From NCBI RefSeq assembly GCF_001426885.1, contig NZ_LMFP01000028.1, positions 895,749 to 959,748 on the forward strand: a stretch of DNA of 64,000 bases. The letters are read 5' to 3'. Under the pieces are notes generated by a model. It saw nothing but the letters and a program-made list of their open reading frames with translations. It did no database searches and had not been told where the DNA came from. A program made the position numbers and the translations under genes. This document shows positions 19,217 through 54,495 of the stretch, one piece after another (positions within the stretch are counted from its first letter, which is position 1; each line of letters opens with the position of its first letter). This DNA comes from Pelomonas sp. Root1444 (GTDB lineage: Bacteria > Pseudomonadota > Gammaproteobacteria > Burkholderiales > Burkholderiaceae_C).

Positions 19217-20644
19217 TCAGCCGGAAACCGGCGCCGCCGCACCCTCAACCGCCGGGCGGCGGATCGGCAACGTCACGCGGAAGGTGGTGCCGCGGCCGAC
19301 CACGCTGTCCACCTCGATGCGGCCCTGGTGCTTCTGCACGATGCCGTACGACAGCGACAGCCCCAGGCCCGTGCCCTTGCCGACCGGCTTGGTCGTGAAG
19401 AAGGGTTCGAAGATGCGCGCCAGCGTGTCGGGCGGGATGCCCGAGCCGTCGTCGGCCACCTCCAGCCAGACCTGCTCGCCTTCGGTACCGGTGCGGATGA
19501 CGATGCGCCCCCGCGCATCGCCCATCGCATGCGCCGCGTTGACGACCAGGTTCATCACGACCTGGTTGAGCTGCGACGGCAGGCATTCGATGTCGGGGAT
19601 GTCGCCGTACTCCTTGACGACGTCGGCCTTGTACCTGATCTCGCTGGCGACGATGTTGAGTGTGGAGTCGATGCCGCGGTGCAGGTTGGCCCACTCGAAG
19701 TCCTGCGCCGAATCGACGCGGGAGAAGTCCTTCAGATCCTGCACGATCTGCCGGACCCGCGCGATGCCCTGCTTGGACTCGCGCATCAGCTCCGGGATGT
19801 CCTCCTTCAGGAACTGCAGCTCCACCTGTTCGCGCAGGTCGCGCAGCTGGCCGGCGACCTCGGGAGGGTTCACGCCCGGCTCGGCCCGCTCGTAGGCGGA
19901 CAGCATCTCTAACAGCTTGGCGAGATAGCCTTCGAGCGTGCCGAAGTTCGAGAAGATGTAGCCGATGGGGTTGTTGATCTCGTGCGCGACGCCCGCCGCG
20001 AGTTGGCCGATGGAGGCGAGCTTCTCGGCCTGCACCAGCTGGCCCTGCAGGTGCTTGCGTTCGCCGATCTCCGCCTGCAGCGTCTGCATCGCCTGCGTGA
20101 TCTCGCGGGTGCGTTCCCGCACCGCTTCCTCCAGCGCGTTGAGCTGGACCGCCGCGTCATGCGTCGTCTGCCACTTGGCCGTCAAGGTGCTGGCGAGCTG
20201 GTGCACCTCGATCGCATCGAAGGGCTTTTTCAGGATCAGCAGCCGGTCGCGCACGTCCAGGCGCTCCAGCACCTCGTTCCACGAATGGTCGGCGAAGGCG
20301 GTACAGATGACGACCTGCAAACGCGCGTCGGCCTGCCACAGCCGCTCTATCGTCTGCACGCCGTCCCAGCCGGGCGGCATGCGCATGTCGACGAAGGCCA
20401 TCGCATAGGGCTGGCCGGCGCTCAGCGCAGCCTCCACCAGGGCCAGCCCTTCCTGGCCCTGGTAAGCCGAGTCGATCTCGAAGCTCAGCGGCGCGGCCTT
20501 CGGTGCGTCGCCGAACAGCGCGGCCTCGACCGCGTCGAGCGCGTCTGCCGGCGCCGCGGCGGGCGCGAGGATCTTGCGGAAGTCGTCATGGATCGCCGGC
20601 ATGTCATCGACGAGCAGGATGCGCCGGTTCGTGGCGGTGTTCAT
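19217..20644 (-). CDS. Response-regulator/histidine-kinase hybrid (receiver followed by kinase)
   Basis: 475 residues. The N-terminal receiver starts RRILLVDDMPAIHDDF and carries the phospho-acceptor in AFVDMRMPPGWDG. A coiled-coil linker, a HisKA with H in GVAHEINNPIGYIFSNFG, and a HATPase domain (DDGSGIPPDTLARIFEPFFTT, GTGLGLS) follow. With no membrane segment it is a cytoplasmic sensor. Its ATG overlaps the stop of the upstream PAS kinase gene (ATGA), so the PAS kinase probably signals to this receiver. No DNA-binding output domain is present in either protein. Confidence 0.85.
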   Translation of the reverse strand: MNTATNRRILLVDDMPAIHDDFRKILAPAAAPADALDAVEAALFGDAPKAAPLSFEIDSAYQGQEGLALVEAALSAGQPYAMAFVDMRMPPGWDGVQTIERLWQADARLQVVICTAFADHSWNEVLERLDVRDRLLILKKPFDAIEVHQLASTLTAKWQTTHDAAVQLNALEEAVRERTREITQAMQTLQAEIGERKHLQGQLVQAEKLASIGQLAAGVAHEINNPIGYIFSNFGTLEGYLAKLLEMLSAYERAEPGVNPPEVAGQLRDLREQVELQFLKEDIPELMRESKQGIARVRQIVQDLKDFSRVDSAQDFEWANLHRGIDSTLNIVASEIRYKADVVKEYGDIPDIECLPSQLNQVVMNLVVNAAHAMGDARGRIVIRTGTEGEQVWLEVADDGSGIPPDTLARIFEPFFTTKPVGKGTGLGLSLSYGIVQKHQGRIEVDSVVGRGTTFRVTLPIRRPAVEGAAAPVSG

Positions 20645-22338
20645 CGTTGACCCTCCGCGGCCTCGATCGGCACGTCGAGCGTGAACGTCGCGCCCAGGTC
20701 GGCGCCCTCGCTGTGCACGTGCAGGACGCCGCCCATTTCCTGTGCGGCCAGCACGCAGCTGTGCAGGCCGAAGCCATGGCCGTTGCGGCGCGTCGTGAAG
20801 CCGTGCGAGAAGATCCGCGTCAGGTTCTGCGCCTCGATGCCTTCGCCGTTGTCGGAGACGCTGATGCGCAAGACCCGCGCCGGCGCCTCGCCGGCCAGCA
20901 TGGCGTGCAGCCTGATGCAGGGCTCGCGGTCGCTCAAGCCGTTCAGCGCCTGCTTCGCGTTGCTGATCAGGTTCACCAGGATCTGCAGCATGCGATGGCG
21001 GTCGAGCATCAGCGCCGGCAGATCGACCAGCGTCTTCACGACCTCGACCTTGTGGCGGGTCAGTGCGCCGGCGTTCATGCGCAGCGCGTCATCCAGCAGC
21101 TCGCCGACGTTGACGGCCTCGACCACGCATGACGCACCGGCGTATGACTGCTGCGTCGCGATCACTTCCTTGATGTGGTCGACACTTTTCGCAAGGGTCG
21201 CGAGCTCGTCGGCCATCGCCACCTGCTCGGCGCGCAGCGCTTGCGCCAGGTCGCGCAGGTAGGTGGGCAGCAGCTTGCCTCGGGGGTCCTGCGTCAGGTA
21301 GTCGCCCAGGTCGCCGGCGTGTTCGTCGATCAAGCCGACGGCGCGCTCCAGGCCCTTGAGCTTGGAGTTGCGCAACCGGTCACCGACCATGCCGGCGGCA
21401 ATGTTGACGCTGTTCAGCACGTTGCCCACGTTGTGCAGCACGTTGGTCGCGATCTCGGCCATGCCGGCCAGGCGCGATGCCTCGACCAGCTGCTTGTGCA
21501 CGACGGCGATCTCCCGCTCCGCGGCTTTCAGCTCGGTGATGTCCTTGGTGATGCCGAAGGTGCCGATGATGTTGCCGTCGCGGTCGCGCAACGGCAACTT
21601 CGTCGTCAGGCACCAAGTGTCCGGCCGCCCGTCGATCCAGGTTTCCTTCTCCACCTTGCCGATCATCGGCACGCCGGTGCGGATGACTTCCTGCTCGTCC
21701 TCGAAGGCCGGGCGGGCATGCTCCTCGGAGAAAACGTCGAAATCCGACTTGCCCACCAGCCCGTCGGGGGTCGGCATGCCGAACTGGCGCGCCTGGCCGG
21801 CGCTGGACTTGATGAAACGCGAGTCGAGGTCCTTGAAGTAGATGTGGTCGGGCGAGTGGTCCAGCAGGTTGCGGAGCAGTTCACGCTCTTGAGCCAGCGC
21901 CTGGTCGGCCTGGCGGCGCTGGCTGATGTCGAACAGGATGCCCTGGCTGCCGACAGGCCTGTCGCCCGGCCCGAGCACCGCCGACTGGACCACCAGGACG
22001 TGCCGCTGCGCGCCGCCCGTACCGGCAGCGGGCCAGGCTTCCTCCCGCTCGATGGTCTGGCCGGTCTGCATGATGGACGCGTGCTGCACCGCGGCTTGCG
22101 CGGCGAACTCCGGGCGCCACGGCGAGGCGGCGTCGGCCGACTCGCGCTCGGCGATTTCCGCGGCGGTCCTGCCCAGGATCTGTTCCGCCGGCATGGCCTT
22201 GAGCCGGCAGAACGCCGGGTTCACGAAGATGAAGCGGCCGGTCGCGTCCGTGCGGAAGATGCCGACGGGCAACTGCTCGACCACCGCAGCAGCGTCGGTC
22301 GGGGTTGAGGCAGGGATGGGCTCGCTTCGCATGGTCAT
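20641..22338 (-). CDS. PAS-domain sensor histidine kinase
   Basis: 565 residues from the ATG at 22338; in-frame starts at 22407 or further upstream would add sequence without domain character. First PAS about 15-125 (VEQLPVGIFRTDATGRFIF), second PAS about 150-265 (LLDHSPDHIYFKDLDSRFI). The phospho-acceptor region is NVLHNVGNVLNSVNIAA, a variant HisKA in which the H-box reads LHNVGN. The HATPase has DNGEGIEAQNLTRIF and GHGFGLH. No transmembrane helix. It is the first gene of a two-gene operon with the receiver-kinase hybrid. Confidence 0.83.
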   Translation of the reverse strand: MTMRSEPIPASTPTDAAAVVEQLPVGIFRTDATGRFIFVNPAFCRLKAMPAEQILGRTAAEIAERESADAASPWRPEFAAQAAVQHASIMQTGQTIEREEAWPAAGTGGAQRHVLVVQSAVLGPGDRPVGSQGILFDISQRRQADQALAQERELLRNLLDHSPDHIYFKDLDSRFIKSSAGQARQFGMPTPDGLVGKSDFDVFSEEHARPAFEDEQEVIRTGVPMIGKVEKETWIDGRPDTWCLTTKLPLRDRDGNIIGTFGITKDITELKAAEREIAVVHKQLVEASRLAGMAEIATNVLHNVGNVLNSVNIAAGMVGDRLRNSKLKGLERAVGLIDEHAGDLGDYLTQDPRGKLLPTYLRDLAQALRAEQVAMADELATLAKSVDHIKEVIATQQSYAGASCVVEAVNVGELLDDALRMNAGALTRHKVEVVKTLVDLPALMLDRHRMLQILVNLISNAKQALNGLSDREPCIRLHAMLAGEAPARVLRISVSDNGEGIEAQNLTRIFSHGFTTRRNGHGFGLHSCVLAAQEMGGVLHVHSEGADLGATFTLDVPIEAAEGQR

Positions 22339-22795
22339 GGCTTCGAAGTGGGCATGCCGGCCTGAGCGGATGGGCGGGCTCGATGCGCCGCGGGCGGGCG
22401 CCGACATGCCGTCGTCCGAACGATTCTGGCGGCTGAGCGCAAACCTGAGTGCGCCTTGGCTGGGCCAAACGGCGGGAAAACGTCGGCAATGACACGGATT
22501 GCGCATCGCTGGCGTGCGGCCGAGCCGCGTCCGAACGGCATGGCGTGGTGCACGGCGTGGCACCGCAAACGCGCGGGAAATGGCTCGATAAAGCGCATCA
22601 ACCCTTCTTCGGTGCATGCCGCGGGCGCGTCTCTGCAGCTTCGGCCACGACGCCGCACGCGCGCCGACCTGCCCCGCTACGCCAGGCGTCAACGGCCCTG
22701 GCACGCGGGCCCGGCCAGCGCTGCAGCGGCGCCCGGGCGGTGTTCGAAAAGGCTGGCACGGCTCCTGCTCATGCTGACTTGTCATAACGAGTTGG
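22339..22795. other. Divergent intergenic region
   Basis: 457 bases between the PAS kinase gene (leftward) and the GntR-type regulator gene (rightward). No reading frame here has convincing coding character. It should hold two promoters, but no strong boxes or inverted repeats stood out. Confidence 0.4.
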
Positions 22796-23623
22796 ATGGC
22801 CATGAGCAAAGGCGCTCTTGCAGCTGCGAAACCGCTGACGCTGGTGACCGCCCCCGAGGCGGACGGCGCTCAACGCATCAAGCTGTCGTCACCGCTGCCG
22901 CTGTACACGCAGATCAAGGAGATCCTGCGCGCACGCATCCTCGACGGCAGCTACCAGCCGCATCAGCAGATGCCGTCGGAGGCCGACATGATGGCCGCGT
23001 TCGGCGTGAGCCGCATCACGGTGCGCCAGGCGCTCAACGACCTGCAGAACGAGGGCCTGATCTTCCGCATCCATGGCAAGGGCAGCTTCGTGTCCAAGCC
23101 CAAGGCCTTCCAGGACCTGGGCCGCCTGCAGGGTTTCGGCGAGGCGATGCGGCAGATGGGCTACGAGACCTTCGCCCGCGTGCTGGCCATCAAGACGGTG
23201 ACGCCGTCGGCGCAGGTGGCGGAGAAGCTGCAATGCCCCAAGCGCGGCAAGGTCACGGAGCTGCAGCGCCTGCGCTTCCTGAACCGCGAGCCGATCTCGC
23301 TGGATGTGACCTGGGTGCCTGCGGCCATCGGCCAGCGCCTGGCCAAGGAAGACCTCGCCGCGCGCGACATCTTCGTCATCCTCGAGAACGACTACGGCCT
23401 GGCCCTCGGCCACGCCGAGCTGCAGATCGGCTCGACGCTGGCCGACGAGACGCTGGCCGCGCAGCTCAAGGTGGAGGCCGGCTCACCGGTGCTCTTCATC
23501 GAGCGCACCACGCACACGGCCGATGGCGCGCCCATCGACTACGAACACCTCTATTACCGCGGCGACGCCTTCCAGTACAAGGTCAGGGTCGATCGCGTTC
23601 CCGTCTCAGAACGAGCCTCTTGA
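22796..23623 (+). CDS. GntR-family regulator with UTRA ligand-binding domain (HutC type)
   Basis: 275 residues (an ATG two codons later is also possible). The winged HTH is at about 38-105 (PLYTQIKEILRARILDG ... PSEADMMAAFGVSRITVRQAL). The UTRA effector domain runs about 125-270 (LQRLRFLNREPISLDVTWVP, IDYEHLYYRGDAFQYKV). It lies 10 bases upstream of the flavoprotein gene and heads the whole gene set to 32527, so it is the likely local regulator. HutC-type GntR proteins usually repress and are released by a small pathway metabolite. The ligand here is unknown. Confidence 0.88.
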   Translation: MAMSKGALAAAKPLTLVTAPEADGAQRIKLSSPLPLYTQIKEILRARILDGSYQPHQQMPSEADMMAAFGVSRITVRQALNDLQNEGLIFRIHGKGSFVSKPKAFQDLGRLQGFGEAMRQMGYETFARVLAIKTVTPSAQVAEKLQCPKRGKVTELQRLRFLNREPISLDVTWVPAAIGQRLAKEDLAARDIFVILENDYGLALGHAELQIGSTLADETLAAQLKVEAGSPVLFIERTTHTADGAPIDYEHLYYRGDAFQYKVRVDRVPVSERAS

Positions 23624-23633
23624 GGAAAGCGAC

Positions 23634-25361
23634 ATGGAAACGATCGAACACGAATACGACATCGTCATCGTCGGCGGCGGCACCGGCGGCCCCATGGCCG
23701 CGGTGAAGGCCAAGGAAAAGAACCCCAAGCTGCGCGTGCTGGTGCTGGACAAGGCCAACGTCAAGCGCAGCGGCGCCATCAGCATGGGCATGGACGGCCT
23801 GAACAACGCCGTCATCCCCGGCCATGCCACGCCCGAGCAGTACACCAAGGAGATCACCGTCGCCAACGACGGCATCGTCGACCAGAAGGGTGTCTATGCC
23901 TACGCGGCCAACAGCTTCCCGATGATCGAGGAGCTGGACCGCTGGGGCATCAAGTTCGAGAAGGACGAGACCGGCGACTACTCGGTGCGCAAGGTCCATC
24001 ACCTGGGCAGCTATGTGCTGCCCATGCCCGAGGGGCACCACATGAAGCGGGTGCTGTACCGGCAGCTCAAGCGGGCGCGCGTGGAGATCACCAACCGCGT
24101 CGTCGCGACGCGGCTGCTGACGGGGCCCGACGGCGAGATTTCCGGCGTCATGGGCTTCGACTGCCGCACGGCGGACTTCCACGTCATCAAGGCCAAGGCC
24201 GTGGTCATCTGCACGGGCGCTGCCGGGCGTCTCGGCCTGCCGGCCAGCGGCTATCTGTTCGGCACCTACGAGAACCCGACCAACTGTGGCGAGGGCCATG
24301 TGATGGCCTATCACGCAGGCGCCGAGCTGACCAACCTCGAGTGCTTCCAGATCAACCCGCTGATCAAGGACTACAACGGCCCGGCCTGCGCCTACGTGAC
24401 CGGGCCCTTCGGTGGCTACACGTCCAACAACGCCGGCCAGCGCTTCATCGAGTGCGACTACTGGAGCGGCCAGATGATGATGGAGTTCTTCAACGAACTC
24501 GAAGGCGGCCGCGGCCCGGTGTTCCTGAAGCTCGACCACCTGGCTGAAGAAACGATCAGCGAGATCGAGCACATCCTGCACACCAACGAGCGGCCCAGCC
24601 GCGGCCGCTTCCACGAAGGCCGCGGCACCGACTACCGCAAGCAGATGATCGAGATGCACATCTCGGAGATCGGCTTCTGCAGCGGCCACAGCGCCTCGGG
24701 CATCTGGACCAACGAGCGCGGCGAATGCTCCATCCCCGGCCTGTACGCGGCGGGCGACTGCGCCAGCATCCCGCACAACTACATGCTGGGCGCCTTCGTC
24801 TACGGCAAGTTCTGCGGCGAGAACGCGGCGGACTATGTGTCAGGCATCGCCTCGCCCAGCTTCGACGCCGGCCAGATCGAGAAGGAGAAGGCCCGCGTCT
24901 ACGCGCCGCTGGGCAAGACCGAGGGCCTCACGCCCTTCCAGGTCGAATACAAGACGCGCCGCATCGTCAACGACTACCTGCAGCCGCCCAAGGTCACCCG
25001 CAAGATGGAGATCGGCCTGCAGCGCTTCGACGAGATCCGCGAGGACCTGCAGCACATGGGCGCCGCCGACCCGCACGAGCTGATGCGGGCCATGGAGGCC
25101 CACACCATCCGCGACTGCGCCGAGCTGGCCGCCCGCGCCTCGCTCTACCGCACCGAGAGCCGCTGGGGCCTGTACCACCTTCGTGTGGACCACCCCGAGA
25201 AGAACGACGCCGACTGGTTCTGCCACACCAACGTGACGAGCGACGCCAACGGCAACGCGGTGTTCCGCAAGCGCGCCGTGGAGCCCTACGTCGTGGAGCT
25301 GAACGAGGAAGAGAAGTCCGCCTACCAGCGGCTGCGCGTGGCAACACCTGCAGCCGCCTAA
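23634..25361 (+). CDS. AprA/FrdA-superfamily flavoprotein (adenylylsulfate-reductase-like; AsfA-like candidate)
   Basis: 575 residues; the ATG after GAGGAAA is chosen. FAD-binding Rossmann motif GGGTGG (14-19); KRSGAISMG (44-52) resembles the AprA segment RSGAVAQG rather than the histidyl-FAD site of fumarate reductase. The second FAD motif is GLYAAGDC (about 369-376). An AprB-like ferredoxin gene follows after 13 bases. This favours an AprA-type enzyme working with an iron-sulfur partner. From memory, the AsfA/AsfB pair needed for arylsulfonate desulfurisation in Pseudomonas putida S-313 is also a reductase-ferredoxin pair. Substrate and reaction direction remain open. Confidence 0.8.
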   Translation: METIEHEYDIVIVGGGTGGPMAAVKAKEKNPKLRVLVLDKANVKRSGAISMGMDGLNNAVIPGHATPEQYTKEITVANDGIVDQKGVYAYAANSFPMIEELDRWGIKFEKDETGDYSVRKVHHLGSYVLPMPEGHHMKRVLYRQLKRARVEITNRVVATRLLTGPDGEISGVMGFDCRTADFHVIKAKAVVICTGAAGRLGLPASGYLFGTYENPTNCGEGHVMAYHAGAELTNLECFQINPLIKDYNGPACAYVTGPFGGYTSNNAGQRFIECDYWSGQMMMEFFNELEGGRGPVFLKLDHLAEETISEIEHILHTNERPSRGRFHEGRGTDYRKQMIEMHISEIGFCSGHSASGIWTNERGECSIPGLYAAGDCASIPHNYMLGAFVYGKFCGENAADYVSGIASPSFDAGQIEKEKARVYAPLGKTEGLTPFQVEYKTRRIVNDYLQPPKVTRKMEIGLQRFDEIREDLQHMGAADPHELMRAMEAHTIRDCAELAARASLYRTESRWGLYHLRVDHPEKNDADWFCHTNVTSDANGNAVFRKRAVEPYVVELNEEEKSAYQRLRVATPAAA

Positions 25362-25374
25362 CGGAGAAACCGCC

Positions 25375-25608
25375 ATGACCATCGCCATCACCCGCACCCA
25401 GGCCCCCGTCGTCATCGATGAGGACAAATGCATCGCCGACAAGGGCTGCACCGTCTGCGTCGACGTCTGCCCGCTCGACGTGCTGGCCATCGACCTGACC
25501 AAGAACAAGGCGTTCATGAAGTTCGATGAATGCTGGTACTGCATGCCCTGCGAGAAGGACTGCCCCACCGGCGCCGTGCGCGTCGACATCCCTTATCTCG
25601 TGAGGTGA
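25375..25608 (+). CDS. AprB-like 2x[4Fe-4S] ferredoxin (AsfB-like candidate)
   Basis: 77 residues. Eight cysteines fit two [4Fe-4S] clusters: C19, C25, C28, C32 (CX5CX2CX3CP) and C53, C56, C59, C63 (CX2CX2CX3CP). The second motif, FDECWYCMPCEKDCPTGAV, closely follows the AprB pattern (CWECYSCVKICPQGAI). It should pass electrons to or from the flavoprotein encoded just upstream. It lacks the long C-terminal tail that wraps AprA in sulfate reducers, so it is a minimal AprB-type subunit. The HEAT gene begins 5 bases after the stop. Confidence 0.85.
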   Translation: MTIAITRTQAPVVIDEDKCIADKGCTVCVDVCPLDVLAIDLTKNKAFMKFDECWYCMPCEKDCPTGAVRVDIPYLVR

Positions 25609-25613
25609 ACGCG

Positions 25614-26564
25614 ATGGCCACCATCCATGAACGGCTGCGCAACCCCGATGCCGGCGTGCGCCGCATCGCCGTCATCGACCTGCCCTACACCGACGAGGAA
25701 GACGACATCGCGCCGCTGCTCGTCGAAGCGCTGTCGGACGCCGATGCCACCGTGCGGCTGGAAGCCGCCAAGGCGCTCGAAGGCTTCGAGGAGCCCGAGG
25801 TGCTGGCCGCCCTGGCGCCGCTGCTGAAGGACGAGGACGCCGACGTGCGCGCGGCCGTCGCCTACACGCTGGCCGAGCTGAAGGACCCGGCCTCCGCCAG
25901 CGCGCTGCTGCCCTACCTGGGCGACGCCGACCCCGAGGTGCAGGCGGCCGCGCTGCAGGCCGTGAAGGCGCTGCGCGTGGATGCCGCCTTCGACCCGGCC
26001 CTGGCGGCGCTGGCACATGCGGACGCCAAGGTGCGCCGCGCAGCCGTCAGCGTGCTGGGCTACCTGAAGAAGCCCCAGGCCATCTCCGCGCTGACCGAGG
26101 TCGCCGCGCACGACACCGACGCCGAGGTGCGCCGCGTCGCGGTGGGCGCGCTGAGCTTTGCCAACGATGCCGAGGTCAGCGTGCATCCGGCGCTGAGCCG
26201 CGCCCTCGCCGATCCCGAGTGGCAGGTGCGGGAGGAAGCGGCCACGACCTTTGCCAAGACCGGCTCGGCGCTGGGCGTGCCCAACCTCGTGCGTGCCATG
26301 GACGACGAGTACTGGCAGGTGCGCGTGAAGGCCGCCCGCAGCCTGGGCAAGCTGAAGGCGCGCGACGGCGTCATGGCGCTGGTGGAGGCGCTGATCCACC
26401 CGGTCAGCAACCTGCGCAAGGAGGCCGTCATCGCGCTGGGCGAGATCGGCGACCCGCGCGCCATCACGCCACTGGAGCGCACGCTGCGCGACCCCGACCC
26501 GGACGTGCGCAAGCTGTCCAAGCTGGCGCTCACCACGATTCAAATGAATGGAGGCGCCGCATGA
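25614..26564 (+). CDS. HEAT-repeat (PBS-lyase-type) protein
   Basis: 316 residues built almost wholly of about nine ~31-residue HEAT repeats, each with a D(A/P)(D/E)xxVRxxAAxxL signature, for example DADATVRLEAAKAL, DEDADVRAAVAYTL, DPEWQVREEAATTF, DPDPDVRKLSKLAL. No signal peptide or catalytic motif. HEAT proteins of this type are scaffolds or maturation factors. Its place between two ferredoxin genes, overlapping the second by ATGA, points to assembly of the flavoprotein/iron-sulfur complex (inference). Confidence 0.85.
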   Translation: MATIHERLRNPDAGVRRIAVIDLPYTDEEDDIAPLLVEALSDADATVRLEAAKALEGFEEPEVLAALAPLLKDEDADVRAAVAYTLAELKDPASASALLPYLGDADPEVQAAALQAVKALRVDAAFDPALAALAHADAKVRRAAVSVLGYLKKPQAISALTEVAAHDTDAEVRRVAVGALSFANDAEVSVHPALSRALADPEWQVREEAATTFAKTGSALGVPNLVRAMDDEYWQVRVKAARSLGKLKARDGVMALVEALIHPVSNLRKEAVIALGEIGDPRAITPLERTLRDPDPDVRKLSKLALTTIQMNGGAA

Positions 26565-26899
26565 GTTTCGTCGTCACCGAGGCTTGCATCCGCTGCAAGT
26601 ACACCGACTGCGTCGCGGTCTGCCCCGTGGAGTGCTTCCACGAAGGCCCGGACTTTCTCGTCATCGACCCGGCCGCCTGCATCGACTGCGGCGTCTGCGT
26701 GCCCGAGTGCCCCGTCGAGGCCATCTTCGACGAGAAGGACCTGCCACCCGAACAGCGCGAGTACGTCGAGCTGAACCGTCGCCTGGCCGCCCAATGGCCG
26801 CTCATCACCGCCGCGCAGGACCCGCTGCCCGATGCCGAGCACTGGGCCAACCAGCCGGACAAGCGCGCGCTGCTGACCGAAAGCGCCGAACAGGTTTGA
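26561..26899 (+). CDS. fdxA: Seven-iron ferredoxin (FdxA type)
   Basis: 112 residues. The N-terminus VVTEACIRCKYTDCVAVCPVE is characteristic of FdxA-type [3Fe-4S][4Fe-4S] ferredoxins, with the second cluster motif CIDCGVCVPECP and the C-terminal helix EYVELNRRLAAQWP. It probably shuttles low-potential electrons between the ferredoxin-NADP reductase encoded downstream and the flavoprotein/AprB-like pair. Being placed inside this operon rather than at a separate housekeeping locus suggests a dedicated role. Confidence 0.88.
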   Translation: MSFVVTEACIRCKYTDCVAVCPVECFHEGPDFLVIDPAACIDCGVCVPECPVEAIFDEKDLPPEQREYVELNRRLAAQWPLITAAQDPLPDAEHWANQPDKRALLTESAEQV

Positions 26900-26909
26900 C
26901 GACCGGTGG

Positions 26910-26929
26910 AAGCCGCTGCGCAGCGGCTT
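26910..26929 (+). terminator. Perfect 20-base palindrome between ferredoxin and binding-protein genes
   Basis: AAGCCGCTG-CG-CAGCGGCTT is self-complementary over 20 bases, followed by TCG rather than a T run. Located between two genes of the same operon, it may weaken read-through or protect the 3' end of the redox-gene message so that transporter genes are expressed at a different level. Confidence 0.45.
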
Positions 26930-26963
26930 TCGTGAATGTGACCCGACAGCCCAGGAGATTGAG

Positions 26964-28439
26964 ATGAGGATTGCCACGCTCTCGAATGTTCCCGCCGCCA
27001 TCCTGCGATGCCTGACCGGCCTCGCGCTCGGCATGACTCTCCTGCCCGCCCACGCCGCCAAGGAGGTGGTGACGATAGGCATCGGCACGCAGAACACCAC
27101 CACCAACACCGTCACCGGCGGCGTCGTGCTCAAGGAGCTCAAGCTGCTGGAGAAGCACCTGCCCAGGACGGGCAAGTACGCCAACATCGAGTGGAAGCTC
27201 GACTGGCAGAACTTCACCTCCGGCCCGCCCATTACCAACGGCATGGTCGCCGGCAAGCTGCAGATCGGCATGATGGGCGACTACCCGCTGCTGGTGAACG
27301 GCGCCACCGGCCAGCAGAACAAGGGCAACGAGACGCAGCTCGTCGCCGTCATCGCCTACAACGCCTTCGGCTCGGGCAACGGCGTGGTGGTGCACAAGGA
27401 CAGCCCCTACTACGAGCTGGCCGACCTCAAGGGTAAGACGGTGTCGGTGCCCTTCGGCTCCGCCGCGCACGGCATGATGCTGCAGGCCATGCAGGAGCGC
27501 GGCTGGCCGGCGGACTACTGGAACCTCGTCAGCCAGAGCCCCGAGGTCGGCACGACCAACCTGCAGGAAAGGAAGATCGACGCGCACGGCGACTTCGTGC
27601 CCTTCGCCGACCTGCTGCCGCAGCGCGGCTTCGCCCGCAAGATCTTCGACGGCGCGCAGACCAAGATCCCGACCTTCCACGGCGTCGTCGTGCGCAAGGA
27701 GTTCGCCGACAAGTACCCCGAAGCCGTCGTCGCCTACATCAAGGCGCTGATGGAGGCCAACGACTGGGTGCGCAAGGACCCCAAGCTCGCCGCCGCCAAG
27801 ATCGAGGCCTGGACCAAGATCGAGAAGGAGGTGGTCTACCTCTTCCTCGGCCCGGGCGGCATCCACACGCTGGACCCGAGCATCAAGCCGCGCTGGGTCG
27901 AAACCATCAAAATCGCCCACGGCGTTTTGTCCAAGCTCGGCCGCGTGAAGGAGTTCGACGTCGCCGCCTGGGTCAACGAGAGCTATCTGCGCGAGGCCTT
28001 CAAGCAGCGCGGCCAGGACTACGAGGCGCAGAAGCAGACGCTGGCCAACTACGACATCGCCGGCAACGACCCCATCTGCAAGCTACCGGTCACGCGGCCC
28101 AAGGAGGCCGGCGAGATCTGGCTGGCCAGCGGCGAGATCGTCGTGGCCAGCTCGCCCGCCTGCCTGCTGGCCGGCGTGAAGCAGTACGAGGCGGCGGGCA
28201 AGACCGTCAAGGTGGCCTACCTGTACGACAAGGCGCTGGGCATCAAGGTCGTCGCCGACAAGGCCTTCTACGCGATGGACGCCAGCAACCCAAAGGCGCC
28301 GCTGGCCGTGCCCTTCCTGTTGAAGAAGGACGCCGAGGCCTACGCCGCCAAGACCAACGCCAGGCTCGCCACCTACGCGGAAGCGCTGGGCCAGGCCACC
28401 GCCACCGTCGTTGCCTCCGGCACGGCCAGCACGAAGTGA
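26964..28439 (+). CDS. ABC substrate-binding protein (SsuA/NrtA type) fused to a C-terminal NosL-like domain
   Basis: 491 residues, ATG preceded by CAGGAG. A signal peptide (cleavage near HAAKE) leads into a type-2 binding-protein fold (about 35-350; IGMMGDYPLLVNG, SVPFGSAAHGMMLQA) like SsuA/TauA/NrtA. From about 366 onward the sequence changes: DPICKLPVTRPKEAGEI, then a FYAMDASNPKAPLAVPF stretch and KDAEAYAAKTNARLATYAEAL. This resembles NosL, with its C-x-x-C-type start and ...A..V.gS...PF...A..fa... end. Here only one Cys of that motif is present. NosL is a copper-binding accessory lipoprotein; the fusion is unusual. Confidence 0.8.
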   Translation: MRIATLSNVPAAILRCLTGLALGMTLLPAHAAKEVVTIGIGTQNTTTNTVTGGVVLKELKLLEKHLPRTGKYANIEWKLDWQNFTSGPPITNGMVAGKLQIGMMGDYPLLVNGATGQQNKGNETQLVAVIAYNAFGSGNGVVVHKDSPYYELADLKGKTVSVPFGSAAHGMMLQAMQERGWPADYWNLVSQSPEVGTTNLQERKIDAHGDFVPFADLLPQRGFARKIFDGAQTKIPTFHGVVVRKEFADKYPEAVVAYIKALMEANDWVRKDPKLAAAKIEAWTKIEKEVVYLFLGPGGIHTLDPSIKPRWVETIKIAHGVLSKLGRVKEFDVAAWVNESYLREAFKQRGQDYEAQKQTLANYDIAGNDPICKLPVTRPKEAGEIWLASGEIVVASSPACLLAGVKQYEAAGKTVKVAYLYDKALGIKVVADKAFYAMDASNPKAPLAVPFLLKKDAEAYAAKTNARLATYAEALGQATATVVASGTASTK

Positions 28440-28444
28440 CCGCC

Positions 28445-29371
28445 ATGACCGCCCTGCACCGCATCGACACCTTCGCGCCGCCGCCCACCGCGGCGGCCAC
28501 GCAACCGCCCCCCAAGACGGTCCCGCCGGCCCATGTCGGCCAGGGCGTGACGCCCCTGCCCCTGCCAACACCGCAGGCGGCCGCGCCCGGCCGCTGGCGC
28601 CGCTTCTGGCAGGGCCGCGGCGCCACCCTGCTGATGGGCGCGCTGTCCATCGCCAGCGTGCTGCTCTTCTGGCAGCTCGCCACGCAGTACAAGCTCGACG
28701 CCTACATCCGCTTCAACAACATCCCCACGCCGGCGCAGGTGCTGGAGAAGGTGGTCGAGGTCAATAGCAGCCCGAAGTTCGCCACCAACATCGGCATCAG
28801 CGTGCGGCGCATCCTGCTGGGCTTCCTGGTGGCGACCGTGACCGGCGTGGGCCTGGGCGTGCTGGTCGGCCGCTACCGCAGCGTGCGCGGGCTGGTGATG
28901 CCGGCGATGGAGGTGTTCCGCCCCATCCCGGCGATCGCCTGGGTGCCGATGTCCATCATGCTGTGGCCCGACAACGAGGTGAGCATCGTCTTCATCACCT
29001 TCCTCGGCGCCTTCTTCCCCATCCTGCTCAACACCGTGCATGGCGTCGAGGCCATCGACCCGGTGCTGCTGCGCGCGGCCCGCACGCTGGGCGCGGGCGA
29101 GGCCAGCCTGCTGCGGCACGTGGTGCTGCCCGGCGCGCTGCCGCACATCTTCACCGGCCTGGCGGTGGGCATGGGCGTGGCCTGGGTGTCGCTGATCGCG
29201 GCCGAGATGATCTCGGGCCAGTTCGGCATCGGCTATTTCACCTGGGAGGCCTATTCGCTGATCAGCTATGCCGAGATCGCCCTCGGCATGATCACCATCG
29301 GCGTGCTGGGCCTGCTGTGCAGCGGCGCCATCCGGCTGCTGGCCAAGCTCGCCATGCCCTGGCATTCATGA
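28445..29371 (+). CDS. ABC transporter permease (SsuC/TauC type)
   Basis: 308 residues from ATG; a GTG at 28436 overlapping the previous stop (GTGA) is an alternative start. A ~55-residue Pro-rich cytoplasmic N-terminus precedes about six TM helices. The EAA loop reads DPVLLRAARTLGAGEASLLRHVVLPGALPHIFTG. This family imports sulfonates, taurine, nitrate or other small oxoanions. It pairs with the binding protein and ATPase on either side; the substrate is inferred only from context. Confidence 0.87.
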   Translation: MTALHRIDTFAPPPTAAATQPPPKTVPPAHVGQGVTPLPLPTPQAAAPGRWRRFWQGRGATLLMGALSIASVLLFWQLATQYKLDAYIRFNNIPTPAQVLEKVVEVNSSPKFATNIGISVRRILLGFLVATVTGVGLGVLVGRYRSVRGLVMPAMEVFRPIPAIAWVPMSIMLWPDNEVSIVFITFLGAFFPILLNTVHGVEAIDPVLLRAARTLGAGEASLLRHVVLPGALPHIFTGLAVGMGVAWVSLIAAEMISGQFGIGYFTWEAYSLISYAEIALGMITIGVLGLLCSGAIRLLAKLAMPWHS

Positions 29372-29538
29372 AGCCCCTCGTCCAAGGCGTACCTTGGCCG
29401 GTCCCCCGAGGGGACGGCGATGCACGCGGCATCGAGCCGCATGCACATCGCCAAGGCGGGCCGGCTTGGGAGCGGCCCGGCGCTCGGCCCGAAAAACTCA
29501 AGCATCGCATGCACCCCCTCACTCACCGGAGACCCGAC
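29372..29538 (+). repeat. GC-rich intergenic repeat element between permease and ATPase genes
   Basis: Contains the 35-base block 29458-29492, which recurs exactly at 52610-52644 between sbp and cysT. Both copies are preceded by GCACATCGCCA. The block can fold (GGGCC...GGCCC outer, GAGC...GCTC inner stem). The left part has a CCCTCG...CGAGGGG-type hairpin like other intergenic elements in this window. Confidence 0.7.
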
Positions 29539-30405
29539 ATGGACAAGACCGTTGCATCCCACGGCCGCGTCGACGTGCGCGACGTGCACATCCGCTTCCA
29601 CACCAAGGGCCAGGAGTTCGAAGCGGTGCGCGCGGCCAACGTGCATGTGCGGCCGGGCGAGTTCGTGTCGCTCATCGGGCCCTCGGGTTGCGGCAAGTCG
29701 ACGCTGCTGAACGCGGTGGCCGGGTTCCTGAAGCCCAGCAGCGGCCAGGTGCTGCTGGACGGCCAGCCCATCACCGGCCCGGGGTCCGACCGCGGCGTGG
29801 TGTTCCAGCAGTACTCGCTGTTCCCGTGGATGACGGTGCGCGCGAACGTGGAGTTCGGGCTGCGCATGAAGGGCGCGTCGGCCAGCGAACGCGAGGCGCA
29901 GGCACGCACGCTGCTCGGACTGGCCGGCCTGCTGTCGTTCGAGAACCACTACCCCGACCAGCTCTCCGGCGGCATGAAGCAGCGCGTGGGCATCGTGCGC
30001 GCGCTGGCCACCAGCCCGCAGGTGCTGCTGATGGACGAGCCCTTCGGCGCGCTGGACTCGCAGACCCGCGTCGTCATGCAGGAGATCCTGACCAACATGT
30101 GGCAGCGCCTGCGCATCTCGGTGCTGTTCATCACGCACGACATCGACGAGGCGGTGTTCCTGTCGGACCGCATTTACGTGATGACGGCGCGCCCCGGCCG
30201 CATCAAGGCGGAGCTGGCCGTGCCGCTGCCGCGGCCGCGCACGCCCGAGATGACCGCCACGCCCGAGTTCGCCGCCATGGTGCGGCAGATCAAGGGCCTG
30301 ATCCGCGAGGAGAGCATCGCGGCGATGGGCGGCGAGCTCAGCGACGGCGGCCTGGCTGGCCTGTGCGCCGAGGTGGGCCCACGCGGCGTGGGGCAGCTGG
30401 TGTGA
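29539..30405 (+). CDS. ABC transporter ATP-binding protein (SsuB/TauB type)
   Basis: 288 residues from the ATG at 29539; a longer upstream frame runs through the repeat element and is rejected. Walker [11 protein letters not shown]-loop [11 protein letters not shown], signature LSGGMKQR, Walker [13 protein letters not shown] and H-loop FITHDIDEA are all intact. It drives the importer formed with the preceding permease and binding protein. Its stop overlaps the next start (TGATG), coupling it to the DUF971 gene. Confidence 0.9.
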
Positions 30406-30701
30406 TGGCCGCGCCGACCGAGATCGTGTGGCACCAGGCCAGCGGCGCGCTGTCGCTGGCCTGGGCCGATGGCCGCGAGGCGCGCCTCACGGCCGCGGGC
30501 CTGAGGGCGGCCTGCAAATGTGCCGCCTGCGAACAACGCCGCCGCGACGGCCGCCCGACGGCCGTGCCCGCCGGCACCGCGCTGACCGCCATCCACCCCG
30601 TCGGCGAGATGGGCGTGCAGCTGGTGTTCAGCGACGGCCATGACCGCGGCATCTATCCCTGGCCCTATCTCCACCAACTTGCCTTGGAGCCTTGCGCATG
30701 A
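30405..30701 (+). CDS. DUF971 / GBBH-like N-terminal domain protein
   Basis: 98 residues: EIVWHQASGALSLAWADGRE, then LRAACKCAACEQ with a C-x-C-x2-C cluster, and a C-terminal GMGVQLVFSDGHDRGIYPW-type strand (here GEMGVQLVF). DUF971 matches the N-terminal zinc-binding domain of gamma-butyrobetaine hydroxylase, and stand-alone versions are often encoded near iron-sulfur biogenesis genes. The overlap with both neighbours (TGATG and ATGA) suggests it serves the operon's iron-sulfur enzymes, but no function is proven for the stand-alone form. Confidence 0.82.
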   Translation: MAAPTEIVWHQASGALSLAWADGREARLTAAGLRAACKCAACEQRRRDGRPTAVPAGTALTAIHPVGEMGVQLVFSDGHDRGIYPWPYLHQLALEPCA

Positions 30702-31471
30702 GCAACCTCTTCGACGCCCAGGTGCTGGACGTCCGCCACTGGACCGACCGCCAGTTCTCCTTCACCTGCACCCGCGACCCGGGCTTTCGCTTCCAGAGCG
30801 GCCAGTTCACGATGCTGGGCCTGATGGTGGACGGCAAGCCGCTGCTGCGGGCCTACAGCGTCGTCAGCCCGCATTGGGAGGAGACGCTGGAGTTCCTCAG
30901 CATCAAGGTGCCCGACGGCCCGCTCACGTCGCGGCTGCAGCACATCCGGCCGGGCGACACGCTGCAGATCGGCCGCAAGGCCTCGGGCACGCTGCTGACG
31001 CAGAACCTGCTGCCCGGCCGCCACCTCTACCTGCTGGCCACCGGCACGGGCGTGGCGCCCTTCATGGCCATGGTGCGCGACCCGGAGGTGTACGAGCAGT
31101 ACGAGAAGGTCATCCTCGTGCACGGCTGCCGCCAGGTGGCGGAGCTGGCCTACGAAGAAGTCATCACCCGCGAGCTGCCCGACAACGAGTACTTCGGCGA
31201 CGAGGTGCGCGACAAGCTCATCTACTACCCCACCGTCACGCGCGAGCCCTTCCGCAACCAGGGCCGCATCCCGACCCTGATGCAAAGCGGCAAGCTCGCT
31301 CAGGACATCGGCCTGCCGCCGCTGTGCGTGGCGAACGACCGTTTCATGCTGTGCGGCAGCCCGGAGATGCTGCGCGACACGCGCGCTTTGTTCGACGACA
31401 TGGGCATGGCCGAGGGGAACATGAGCCACCCGGGGCACTTCGTCATCGAGCGCGCCTTCGTCGAAAAATAG
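30698..31471 (+). CDS. Ferredoxin--NADP(+) reductase (FPR type)
   Basis: 257 residues, ATG overlapping the DUF971 stop. FAD-binding motif RAYSVVSP (R-x-Y-S), NADP-binding region LLATGTGVAPFMAM, and a C-terminal MSHPGHFVIERAFVEK ending like bacterial Fpr proteins (aromatic ring supplied as F in VIERAF). It should move electrons from NADPH to the operon's ferredoxins. With fdxA and the AprAB-like pair it completes a self-contained electron chain in the cytoplasm. Confidence 0.9.
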   Translation: MSNLFDAQVLDVRHWTDRQFSFTCTRDPGFRFQSGQFTMLGLMVDGKPLLRAYSVVSPHWEETLEFLSIKVPDGPLTSRLQHIRPGDTLQIGRKASGTLLTQNLLPGRHLYLLATGTGVAPFMAMVRDPEVYEQYEKVILVHGCRQVAELAYEEVITRELPDNEYFGDEVRDKLIYYPTVTREPFRNQGRIPTLMQSGKLAQDIGLPPLCVANDRFMLCGSPEMLRDTRALFDDMGMAEGNMSHPGHFVIERAFVEK

Positions 31472-31477
31472 CCTGGG

Positions 31478-32527
31478 ATGCTGGCCCGCGCCGCCTTCTT
31501 CGACGCCCAGGGCCAGGCCCTGCGGCGCGTCTGGCCGGGCTGGGCCACCTGCGTGCTGATCGCGCTGGCCGCCTCGTTCGTGGCCGCGCTGCACCAGGGG
31601 CCGCCCATGCTGTACGCGCTGCTGTTCGGCACCGCCCTGCACTGCCAGAGCCCCGAGGACCGCACCGCCGCCGGCGTGGAGTTCTGCAGCCGCACGCTGC
31701 TGCGCCTCGGCGTGGGCCTGCTGGGCGCTCGCATCACCTGGGAGCAGGTGGCGGGCCTGGGCTGGCCGACGGTGCTGGTCGTGCTGGGGGCGGTGGCGAG
31801 CACGCTGGCCTGCGGCTGGTGGCTGGCCAAGGCGCTGCGCCTGCCCTGGATGCTGGGCGTGCTGGCGGGCGGGGCCACGGCCATCTGCGGCGCCTCCGCG
31901 GCGCTGGCCATCGCGGCGGTGCTGCCGCGGGCGCGCGACGGCGAGACACCGACCGAGCAGCACGGCCTGGTGGTGGCGGTGATGGCCACGCTGCTGTCGA
32001 CGGCGGCGATGGTGGCCTACCCGCTGATCGCGCGGCAGCTGCACCTGTCGGCGGCCGGCGCCGGGCTCTTCATCGGCGGCAGCATCCACGACGTGGCCCA
32101 GGTGATCGTGGCCGGCTACGCCATCTCGCCGGCGGCCGGCGACACCGCCTCGCTCGTGAAGCTGCTGCGCGTGAGCCTGCTGGTCGTGGTGGTGCTGGGC
32201 GTGTCGCTCGCCTGCCGTGCGCCGGGCCAGGCCGGCCAGCAGCCACCCGCGCTGATGCTGCGGCTGCGCGGCCTGGTGCCGGGCTTCCTGTGGCTGTTCG
32301 TCGCGCTCGCCGCGCTCAACTCGCTGGGCTGCCTGCACCTGTTGCAGGAACCGCTCAACGTGGCCTCGCGCGCCTGCCTGATGCTGGGCGTGGCCGGGCT
32401 GGGCATGAAGACCTCGTTCCTGCGCCTGGCCAGCGCCGGGTGGCGGCCGGTGCTGCTGATGCTGGCGACCAGCGCCTGGCTGGCCGGCGTCTCGCTGGCC
32501 GCAGCGTGTGGGCTGGGGCCGCGCTGA
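31478..32527 (+). CDS. YeiH-family putative sulfate/sulfite exporter (UPF0324)
   Basis: 349 residues with about ten hydrophobic helices. Family hallmarks are LLRLGVGLLGARITWEQV, the Gly-rich GGATAICGASAALAIAAV and FIGGSIHDVAQVIVAGY. YeiH-type proteins are annotated as putative sulfate exporters, and in enterobacteria yeiH is controlled by YeiE, a regulator linked to sulfite. The start is 6 bases after the reductase gene, so it is the last gene of the operon. Its presence suggests that inorganic sulfite or sulfate is released by the pathway. Confidence 0.85.
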   Translation: MLARAAFFDAQGQALRRVWPGWATCVLIALAASFVAALHQGPPMLYALLFGTALHCQSPEDRTAAGVEFCSRTLLRLGVGLLGARITWEQVAGLGWPTVLVVLGAVASTLACGWWLAKALRLPWMLGVLAGGATAICGASAALAIAAVLPRARDGETPTEQHGLVVAVMATLLSTAAMVAYPLIARQLHLSAAGAGLFIGGSIHDVAQVIVAGYAISPAAGDTASLVKLLRVSLLVVVVLGVSLACRAPGQAGQQPPALMLRLRGLVPGFLWLFVALAALNSLGCLHLLQEPLNVASRACLMLGVAGLGMKTSFLRLASAGWRPVLLMLATSAWLAGVSLAAACGLGPR

Positions 32528-32551: not shown

Positions 32552-34444
<1,893 letters not shown>

Positions 34445-34528
34445 GGTGGCGGGTGGCTTCGCTGCTGTAGGTATGCCCAGCATGATCAAGGCGAGGCCCG
34501 CCGATTCCAAGTGTGAAACAGGCACTTC

Positions 34529-37700: not shown

Positions 37701-38384
37701 ATGCCTACCGACCTCTGGCGCCAGTTCGACGCCGCGCCGCTGCTGCTGACGCTGCGCGTCGCCGGCGTGGCGACGCTGCTGGCCCTCGCGCTGGGCGTGG
37801 CGCTGGGCTGGGTGTTCGCGCGCACGAAGCTGCCGGGGCGCGGCCTGCTGGAGGCCGTCTGCATGCTGCCGCTGGTGCTGCCGCCCACCGTGCTGGGCTA
37901 CGGCCTGCTGGTGCTGGCAGGCCGGCGCAGCGCTTTGGGCGGCTGGCTGCGCGAGCATTTCGACTACACGCTGATCTTCAACTGGCATGGCGCCGTCGTC
38001 GCGTCCACGCTGGTGGCCCTGCCGCTGGTGCTCAAGGGCGCCAGCAGCGCCTTCGCCCAGGTGGACCGCAGCCTGGAGGCCGCCGCGCGCACGCTGCGCC
38101 AGTCGGGCTGGAGCACCTTCCTGCGCGTGACGCTGCCACTGGCCTGGCCGGGCATCCTGGCCGGCACGCTGCTGGCCTTCGCCCGCGCGATGGGCGAGTT
38201 CGGCGCGTCGCTGATGGTGGCGGGCTCCATCCCCGGCCAGACGCAGACGGCCTCCATGGCCATCTACGACGCGGTGCAGGCCGGCCGCGACGACCTGGCG
38301 CTGATGCTCGCCCTCATCGTGTCGGCCGTCTCGGTCGCCATCCTGCTGCTGTCCAACCGCTACCTGCAACGCGCGCCGTCATGA
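37701..38384 (+). CDS. modB: Molybdate ABC transporter permease
   Basis: 227 residues, five predicted TM helices. Typical ModB motifs: LPLVLPPTVLGYGLLV and the EAA-loop region LEAAARTLRQSGWSTFLRVTLPLAWPGI, then [19 protein letters not shown]. It forms the membrane channel for molybdate (possibly tungstate) with ModA and ModC. The ATG is only 5 bases after the ModE box, which is unusually close, and its stop overlaps modA (ATGA). Order modB-modA-modC-modE differs from the enteric modABC. Confidence 0.92.
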   Translation: MPTDLWRQFDAAPLLLTLRVAGVATLLALALGVALGWVFARTKLPGRGLLEAVCMLPLVLPPTVLGYGLLVLAGRRSALGGWLREHFDYTLIFNWHGAVVASTLVALPLVLKGASSAFAQVDRSLEAAARTLRQSGWSTFLRVTLPLAWPGILAGTLLAFARAMGEFGASLMVAGSIPGQTQTASMAIYDAVQAGRDDLALMLALIVSAVSVAILLLSNRYLQRAPS

Positions 38385-39112
38385 AACGCCTGCTGCTGCT
38401 CCTCACCGCCCTGCCCTGGCTGGCGTCTGCCCAGCAGCTGACCGTTTCGGCCGCCGCCAGCCTGACGGACGCCTTCAAGGCCATCGCCCCGCGCTTCGAA
38501 GCCGCGAGGCCCGGTGCGACCGTGCGCTTCAACTTCGCCGCCTCCGGCGTGCTGCTGCAGCAGATCGCCCAAGGCGCGCCGGTGGACGTGTTCGCCAGCG
38601 CCGACCAGGAGACCATGGACCGTGCCGCCGCGCAGAAGCTCGTCGCGGCCGGCACGCGGCGCGATTTCGCGGCGAACTCGCTGGTGCTGGTCACGCCGCC
38701 CGGCGGCGCCGTCGCAAGCATGCGCGACCTGGCCGGTGCCGGCGTGAAGCGCATCGCCATCGGCAAACCGGCGTCCGTGCCGGTGGGGCGCTACACGCAG
38801 CAGGCGCTGGAGAACGCGCGGCTCTGGGCCGGCCTGCAACCCAAGCTGGTGTTCGCCGACAACGTGCGCCAGGTGCTGGACTATGTGTCGCGCGGCGAGG
38901 TCGAAGCCGGCTTCGTCTACCGCACCGACGCCGAGCTGGCCAGGGGCAAGGTCGGCATCGCGATGACGGTGGCCGGGCATGCGCCGGTCAGCTACCCGGC
39001 GGCCGTGGTGGCCGACAGCAGGCAGGCGGCGCTGGCGCGCGACTTCGTCGCCTTCCTCGGCGCTGCCGAGGCGCAGGGCATCCTCGCCAAGCACGGCTTC
39101 GACAGACCTTGA
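38381..39112 (+). CDS. modA: Molybdate-binding periplasmic protein
   Basis: 243 residues with a signal peptide (cleavage near ASAQQ). ModA motifs: LTVSAAASLTDAFKAIAP, FNFAASGVLLQQIAQGAPVDVFASAD, IGKPASVPVGRYTQQAL, VRQVLDYVSRGEVEAGFVYRTD. These place the Ser, Val/Ala and Tyr ligands that hold the oxoanion in the family. It delivers molybdate to ModB. It overlaps modB by ATGA and modC by TTGA. Confidence 0.93.
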   Translation: MKRLLLLLTALPWLASAQQLTVSAAASLTDAFKAIAPRFEAARPGATVRFNFAASGVLLQQIAQGAPVDVFASADQETMDRAAAQKLVAAGTRRDFAANSLVLVTPPGGAVASMRDLAGAGVKRIAIGKPASVPVGRYTQQALENARLWAGLQPKLVFADNVRQVLDYVSRGEVEAGFVYRTDAELARGKVGIAMTVAGHAPVSYPAAVVADSRQAALARDFVAFLGAAEAQGILAKHGFDRP

Positions 39113-54494: not shown

Positions 54495-54495
54495 G

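Follow-up and report, generated by a model that had tools for sequence, protein, structure and literature searches.

An operon of Pelomonas sp. Root1444 joining an APS reductase-like flavoprotein to a sulfonate-type importer: a candidate module for sulfonate cleavage

Closest described systems and the proposed module

The well-known assimilatory desulfonating enzymes, SsuD and TauD, need oxygen and are found with importers of the SsuABC and TauABC type. Within a 64,000-nucleotide stretch of Pelomonas sp. Root1444 (contig NZ_LMFP01000028.1, positions 895,749 to 959,748; here called the window) lies an operon of eleven genes that shares with these systems the type of its ATP-binding cassette (ABC) importer and the fold of its binding protein, but which has no oxygenase and whose binding protein carries an additional NosL-like domain; genes of the Ssu and Tau systems flank two rhizobial plasmid copies of the operon. 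Its central protein is a flavin adenine dinucleotide (FAD) flavoprotein of the superfamily that holds AprA, of adenosine 5'-phosphosulfate (APS) reductase, and 3'-phosphoadenosine 5'-phosphosulfate (PAPS) reductase, encoded next to a small ferredoxin.

The nearest solved relative of this flavoprotein is the alpha subunit of the PAPS reductase of the methanogen Methanothermococcus thermolithotrophicus (PDB 8a8o; 204 bits), followed by AprA. As described in the available portion of PMC10322725, the methanogen enzyme combines FAD on its alpha subunit with two [4Fe-4S] clusters on a ferredoxin-like beta subunit, reduces PAPS with release of sulfite and keeps the catalytic residues of APS reductase, whereas the operon flavoprotein has Leu for Arg. 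A bacterial relative of the methanogen enzyme is found on a plasmid of Ilyobacter (L116, 9402-12881), where cysC, an APS/PAPS-reductase-like flavoprotein with its ferredoxin, and cysD follow a DASS anion symporter; the Ilyobacter pair thus adjoins cysC and cysD, the operon pair an importer instead. AprAB is alike in superfamily, in its FAD subunit with a 2[4Fe-4S] partner and in a conserved Asn and His, but differs in the Arg and Trp that the operon flavoprotein has replaced, in clade and in model scores, which fall far under the AprAB cut-offs. AsfAB likewise joins a flavoprotein and a small ferredoxin linked to sulfonates, and its host genera overlap, as far as the available portion of PMC9694294 goes; it differs in having no close homology and another regulator, and the operon adds HEAT, DUF971, FdxA, a ferredoxin--NADP reductase-type protein (FNR) and an exporter.

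The operon likely has a role in sulfur metabolism, and we give a probability of about 0.55 to a module for uptake of a sulfonate-type compound, its cleavage driven by NAD(P)H and ferredoxin, release of sulfite and overflow export. In such a scheme the GntR protein would repress its own operon through the site at 22778-22791 until released by substrate or product, and the SsuA/TauA-like importer would take up a compound of the form R-X-SO3-. Electrons from NAD(P)H would pass via FNR to FdxA and on to the flavoprotein through the 77-residue 2[4Fe-4S] ferredoxin, with the HEAT protein holding the parts together. Reduced FAD would then attack the sulfonate sulfur, as proposed for APS reductase, giving sulfite and R-XH; the sulfite would pass to assimilatory sulfite reductase and the surplus would exit through YeiH. 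We infer the substrate, the direction of the electrons, the sulfite product and the roles of the HEAT and DUF971 proteins; the operon, its families and conservation, the operator motif, the residue changes and the associations with exporters and reductases are read from the sequence itself. A more specific form of the proposal is tentative, and we would place it somewhat short of even odds: an oxygen-independent 'sulfonate reductase', that is, an APS-reductase-like flavoenzyme in which a sulfonate pocket (Leu243, Tyr212, His122-His123, Cys237, Cys252, Cys349) replaces nucleotide recognition, set in a HEAT-scaffolded ferredoxin complex and carried with importer and sulfite valve as a mobile cassette in at least three phyla.

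If the proposal is true, oxygen-poor cells would gain access to sulfonate sulfur by a reductive route linked to ferredoxin. A large flavoprotein family, in which the close members bear the label fumarate reductase, would receive a function, the APS reductase fold would be seen turned to a new substrate, and the SsuA-NosL fusion would add a kind of binding protein that is apparently undescribed; the compact system with its candidate operator makes the proposal directly testable. A sequence-only reading of the window had already suggested organosulfur import, ferredoxin-driven cleavage and sulfite export, and this gains support from the SsuA/TauA-like binding protein, the varied exporter arrangements, the sulfonate genes flanking several plasmid copies and the exchangeable ferredoxin reductases described below. 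In the openly licensed literature, judged by titles and the starts of abstracts, no publication visibly on this operon was found, and the module seems unstudied.

Conservation was assessed on the best 80 of 204 loci by similarity (protein search, one genome per species), which for that reason lean towards close relatives. Presence of a gene was scored as a match in the scanned stretch, from -3.5 to +11.5 kb of the flavoprotein, in 65 long loci made up of 61 of the 80 and four plasmid stretches with enough sequence. Among the 80 loci the window's gene order (GntR, flavoprotein, ferredoxin, HEAT, FdxA, binding protein, permease, ATPase, DUF971, FNR, YeiH) is found again with variants, and since its core recurs the grouping is not chance. 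Flavoprotein, ferredoxin and HEAT protein were each matched in 65/65 long loci and the binding protein, permease and ATPase in 64/65, followed by GntR (63/65), DUF971 (58/65), FdxA (54/65), FNR (35/65) and YeiH (31/65). The flavoprotein family is sparse, with 8 of 150 genomes of the order exceeding its cut-off; the core is also carried on plasmids of Acidithiobacillus, Acinetobacter, Methylobacterium, Methylocystis and rhizobia, of the cyanobacterium Pseudanabaena and of the actinobacterium Tsukamurella. In a second arrangement, type B, the importer genes precede the HEAT gene, and FdxA, FNR and YeiH are absent in the copies seen. The host genome itself holds such a copy (contig C7, L092 3345-11068: GntR, flavoprotein, ferredoxin, binding protein, permease, ATPase, HEAT, DUF971), whose flavoprotein is 74% identical to that of the window; the latter is 98% identical to its counterpart in Pelomonas sp. 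Root1217.

The flavoprotein and its redox partners

With 1074.5 bits against a cut-off of 587, the flavoprotein is a member of NCBIfam PRK08275 (NF006131), a family that carries the name 'fumarate reductase/succinate dehydrogenase flavoprotein subunit'. An ordinary fumarate reductase was considered and rejected: the protein scores 165 bits with TIGR01812 (SdhA/FrdA; cut-off 567.3), and in a quick tree of 29 proteins, with long branches, the 16 family rows, including those of Pseudanabaena and Tsukamurella, form a single clade (Shimodaira-Hasegawa-like approximate likelihood ratio test, SH-aLRT, 92) apart from AprA and from the two SdhA/Frd-like rows. The sequence-only reading would have been undercut by a flavoprotein that grouped with ordinary fumarate reductases, and the protein instead falls into a clade of its own. 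The PAPS-reductase-like protein of Ilyobacter falls into another clade together with six AprA (SH-aLRT 100). The family search matched 6475 of 8000 scored candidates at E 1e-3, other flavoproteins of the superfamily included. An AlphaFold model of the protein (mean predicted local distance difference test score 67; 187 of 575 residues under 50, including most of 237-354) was too poor in the region of these residues to be informative.

Active-site residues were compared between 92 members (the window and 91 loci, all Pseudomonadota, with the cyanobacterial and actinobacterial copies excluded) and 12 AprA of the same class, with the numbers of A. fulgidus AprA counted on the alignment to the flavoprotein. 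Asn57 and His352, present in 92/92 members, match AprA Asn74 and His398, which we take to be flavin-site residues and which are found in 12/12 AprA; Lys245, Pro380 and His381 are also kept at AprA-aligned positions throughout the 92. Leu243 and Tyr212, again in 92/92, stand where all 12 AprA have Arg265 and Trp234, presumably the catalytic and the substrate-contacting residue respectively. The loop before residue 135, whose AprA counterpart makes contacts to APS, is of different length and sequence, and His122, His123, Cys237, Cys252 and Cys349 are invariant in the members and absent from the 12 AprA. This pattern of residues and loop suggests that the flavoprotein turns the AprA framework to a different substrate. 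The sequence-only reading had proposed a check of the AprA catalytic residues; of the residues compared, Asn and His are kept and Arg and Trp replaced.

The same comparison bears on the alternative named in that reading, oxidation of sulfite by an AprAB-type step (sulfite + AMP to and from APS) with the importer and exporter serving sulfur oxyanions. Common superfamily, a 2[4Fe-4S] partner and the matching Asn and His in 92/92 members speak for such a step, but it is largely refuted and by now very improbable, given the change of Arg to Leu and of Trp to Tyr in every member, the different sequence of the APS-contacting loop, and scores of 159.1 against 641.75 bits for the curated aprA model and 38.4 against 135.65 for aprB (77 residues on a 132-position model). 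Nor was a sat or apr partner found among the flank families common to more than five loci, judged by eye on a partly annotated set of clusters. Membership of AprAB was ruled out on these residues, the loop and the two scores; a search of the host genome with the aprA model gave at best 109.6 bits (cut-off 641.75).

A flavoprotein with a small ferredoxin in overlapping host genera would also suit an AsfAB-like electron chain feeding an arylsulfonate oxygenase encoded elsewhere, and kinship to AsfAB had been proposed from the sequence. We regard this as quite improbable. The genome paper of strain CH34, in its available portion, puts asfRAB on chromosome 2 (PMC2864759), which we infer to be record NC_007974.2 (2.58 Mb). 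The best relatives of the flavoprotein on that record reach just 27% and 26% identity; one of them has a small ferredoxin as its partner and, by eye, ABC-importer-like open reading frames (ORFs) nearby, and is probably asfA. This candidate AsfA scores 56.2 bits with the family model (cut-off 587) and its branch in the tree measures 8.5 changes per site, a length at which long branches may meet, so the proposed kinship was not borne out; in addition, most loci are regulated by GntR, not LysR. AsfAB membership was rejected on the finding that the presumed asf-bearing replicon holds nothing above 27% identity.

The ferredoxin partner is uniform: its pattern of eight cysteines, remarked on in the sequence-only reading, recurs in 90/90 homologues examined. 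In Tsukamurella the flavoprotein and the HEAT protein form one 893-residue protein (PRK13800, 1568.1 bits, cut-off 1196), and from this fusion the HEAT protein is argued to act on the flavoprotein. The PRK13800 fusion resembles the operon in superfamily branch and in the ferredoxin, importer and GntR genes around it, but has its HEAT part fused, and the annotation of the 12 kb flanks in Tsukamurella shows neither DUF971 nor FNR nor an exporter. In Pseudanabaena an Mrp/NBP35 iron-sulfur carrier stands after the HEAT gene.

Electron supply is suggested by the reductases. FNR (35 loci) and a 1194-residue Nfn-like fusion (11 of the 65, in loci without FNR; example L060 16839-20420) never occur together, with a p value of 6e-5 that ignores the kinship of the loci, and 19 loci have neither. 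Both subunits of the ferredoxin:NADP oxidoreductase NfnI have a match in the 1194-residue protein, that of the smaller subunit being weak (E 1.3e-4), and the protein scores 584.5 bits with PRK06567 (cut-off 1072); Pfam gives no match for roughly the first 290 residues. Two types of ferredoxin reductase in one slot fit a flow from NAD(P)H through ferredoxin to the flavoprotein. It is worth noting, however, that FNR and Nfn-like enzymes are reversible. With the same uptake and sulfite release the flavoprotein could be oxidative, the sulfonate being dehydrogenated or desaturated, sulfite eliminated and the electrons passed via the ferredoxins to NADP+; the fold is common to fumarate/succinate-type enzymes, and the flavoprotein retains the invariant Asn and His but lacks the APS-type Arg. 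This alternative is unlikely, in that PAPS reductase and AprA come closest among solved enzymes, the former making sulfite reductively (PMC10322725, available portion), and that two ferredoxins with a dedicated reductase of two interchangeable types fit electron supply better, although they are no proof of it.

Importer, exporters and neighbouring genes

The binding protein has the SsuA/TauA fold, with SsuA and TauA closest and CmpA and NrtA also near. The best NCBIfam match of the permease is SaoP (153.8 bits, cut-off 295) and that of the ATPase SaoA (268.4 bits, cut-off 360), the taurine ATPase model giving the latter 245.6 bits, a Tau/Sao type. Sao denotes a selenocysteine-assisted organometallic operon in the available portion of PMC10418091; membership of the SAO system was rejected, both scores lying below cut-off. 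By profile comparison the C-terminal domain of the binding protein is homologous to NosL (hhalign 97.9%, E 3.7e-13), tested with 11 NosL rows after four of 15 were dropped as mis-framed or odd. The window protein has no Pfam NosL match, while the binding protein of a homologous operon passes that cut-off (28.5 vs 24 bits). Among the 50 matches listed by each fold search, chains of NosL or MerB were absent, because the large domain fills the list, and the NosL assignment is one of profiles. What we take to be the Cu(I)-binding Cys/Met motif of NosL is not retained: the Met is not conserved, and the Cys pair is present in type A and absent from type B. A Pseudanabaena LysR regulator of 670 residues (L114 9637-11652) bears an NMT1-type binding-protein domain near its C-terminal end and perhaps senses a ligand like that of the importer.

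The fold of NosL is related to that of MerB and would fit the handling of metals or organometals. Together with the sub-threshold SaoP and SaoA matches and the closeness of CmpA and NrtA, it lends some support to a system outside sulfur metabolism, which would take up another small anion or an organometal compound and convert it by redox chemistry, with YeiH as a general anion exporter. Such a system is distinctly unlikely: the exporters joined to the module belong to sulfite-type families, several plasmid flanks hold sulfonate genes, the presumed metal-binding Met of NosL is not conserved and the Cys pair is missing from type-B binding proteins.

With regard to export, the window YeiH matches PF03601 at 194 bits (cut-off 24.5). 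In Salmonella, YeiH is required for sulfite resistance (PMC12880088, the portion seen being silent on transport itself); a proteome of Rhodococcus IGTS8 names YeiH, which was not detected there, and is of no help (PMC8557817, available portion). YeiH stands downstream of the module in 24 of 84 loci searched, and a divergent LysR-YeiH pair upstream in 14 loci, nine of them with TauE/SafE, the exporter families having been verified on examples; one upstream LysR reaches 172.8 bits with the YeiE model (cut-off 480). Both YeiH and TauE/SafE follow the module in Pseudanabaena, and TauE/SafE directly precedes it in Aquabacterium olei; among the 61 complete loci of the 80 there are 28 with YeiH alone, six with YeiH and TauE/SafE and 27 with neither. 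Because the placements vary so, separate joinings and sulfite as the product are suggested. The YeiE-YeiH sulfite resistance pair has the same PF03601 exporter and the divergent arrangement of those 14 loci, but the window YeiH is the last gene of a GntR operon and is 30-34% identical to the eight upstream copies that it matches.

A survey of the flanks of the 80 loci gave eleven ORF clusters common to more than five loci, one Nfn-like, one LysR and nine that by eye look like antisense ORFs. By a criterion fixed after the cases had been seen, seven of 15 annotated plasmid copies are flanked by genes for sulfonate, sulfate or sulfite transport or for sulfonate-type monooxygenases; the weakest of the seven has LLM monooxygenases with M20 and GNAT genes, and a further copy would be the eighth if a TSUP gene 7 kb away counted. 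Sulfur-type genes flank 6/10 plasmid copies vs 0/10 control stretches on the same plasmids (p 0.005), or 5/10 copies with the weakest dropped; one control stretch carries cysteine desulfhydrase and C-S lyase genes and was not counted as positive.

Several points weigh against reductive cleavage of an imported sulfonate. Firstly, more specific models are missed by the binding protein (SsuA_fam, 129.2 bits, cut-off 163.5), by YeiH (TIGR00698, 109.8 bits, cut-off 232.6) and by FNR (NF008178, 158.1 bits, cut-off 390). Secondly, proteins with the fold of the binding protein also take nitrate, bicarbonate and other ligands, FNR-type enzymes can run either way, so that oxidation by the flavoprotein is possible, and the chemistry of APS reductase is not directly transferable since the AprA Arg is Leu in 92/92 members. 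Thirdly, those 27 of 61 complete loci have no nearby YeiH or TauE/SafE match, a clear sulfur neighbour is lacking for eight of the 15 annotated plasmid copies under the after-the-fact criterion, and the p values are optimistic because the loci are related by descent. Finally, Crp/Fnr-type regulators stand beside seven of eight alphaproteobacterial plasmid copies and could point to another signal.

Operon layout, predicted operator and surroundings

The operon occupies 22796-32527 of the window on the forward strand (Table 1). The sequence-only reading had rightly described its genes as co-directional and close-packed, counting ten where there are eleven; its family calls match the Pfam and NCBIfam results, and its list of parts stands, although the NosL-like domain, the GntR operator, the second genomic copy and the wide conservation escaped it. 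Eight of the ten junctions are at most 13 nt, four of these being overlaps (in gene order 10, 13, 5, -4, 64, -4, 167, -1, -4 and 6 nt), and the two wider gaps lie 5' of the binding protein gene (64 nt) and of the ATPase gene (167 nt).

The core CTTGTCATAACGAG is separated from the first gntR start codon by 4 nt. It is one of three matches to CTNGTNNNNACNAG in the window, where 0.46 are expected, and for CTYGTCATAACRAG the window site is the sole exact match in the 5.89 Mb genome, with one more site at one mismatch. Within 350 nt upstream of gntR, CTTGTCATAACAAG with up to two mismatches is found in 49 of 82 loci (one genome counted twice, L152 = L060) vs 2 of 749 control stretches, and the stricter CTNGTNNNNACNAG in 29 of the 82. 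A similar palindrome lies upstream of the type-B copy in the host genome. On account of its position and shape we predict this site to be the operator of a local self-regulating repressor.

Table 1. Features of the operon and neighbouring genes in the window
Feature	Position	Strand	Basis or remark
Probable GntR operator, imperfect palindrome with core at 22778-22791	22777..22792	+	Motif counts
GntR/UTRA (HutC-type) regulator	22796..23623	+	Pfam GntR and UTRA
AprA/PAPS-reductase-superfamily FAD flavoprotein	23634..25361	+	FAD_binding_2/Succ_DH_flav_C; NCBIfam PRK08275 (NF006131)
77-residue 2[4Fe-4S] ferredoxin, probable flavoprotein partner	25375..25608	+	Fer4 families; eight-Cys pattern
HEAT-repeat protein, probable flavoprotein scaffold	25614..26564	+	HEAT_2, 5 stretches
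FdxA ferredoxin	26561..26899	+	NF045490, 158.3 bits, cut-off 135
Substrate-binding protein, SsuA/TauA-like domain (~residues 33-360) and NosL-like C-terminal domain (~366-480)	26964..28439	+	NMT1
ABC permease, Ssu/Tau/Nrt type	28436..29371	+	BPD_transp_1
ABC ATPase, Ssu/Tau/Nrt type	29539..30405	+	NCBIfam best match SaoA, below cut-off
DUF971 (= GBBH-like_N) protein	30405..30701	+	PF06155, 66.9 bits (stretch from 30465)
Ferredoxin--NADP reductase-type protein (FNR)	30698..31471	+	NAD_binding_1 and FAD_binding_6
YeiH-family exporter, most likely for sulfite	31478..32527	+	PF03601
Two adjoining sensor kinase/response regulator-type genes	19217..22809	-	Divergent from the operon; from translations only
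657-residue FtsH-like AAA protease	32555..34525	-	Directly after the operon; 423.6 bits, FtsH cut-off 600
ModB gene and ModC-like gene	37701..39816		ModB over cut-off, ModC-like below; near the next pair
Cyanase gene adjoining nitrate-type ABC ATPase gene	41204..42519		Both over cut-off
CysT-, CysW- and CysA-type sulfate importer genes	52667..55545	+	20 kb downstream of the operon

The window lies within a 1.40 Mb contig. Scans of it with Rfam and for tRNA gave no match, and no sat, dsr, sox or ssuD gene was seen next to the operon, in agreement with the sequence-only reading. Elsewhere in the host genome there are an SsuD gene, away from the operon, and genes of the NIR_SIR family, for sulfite or nitrite reductase.

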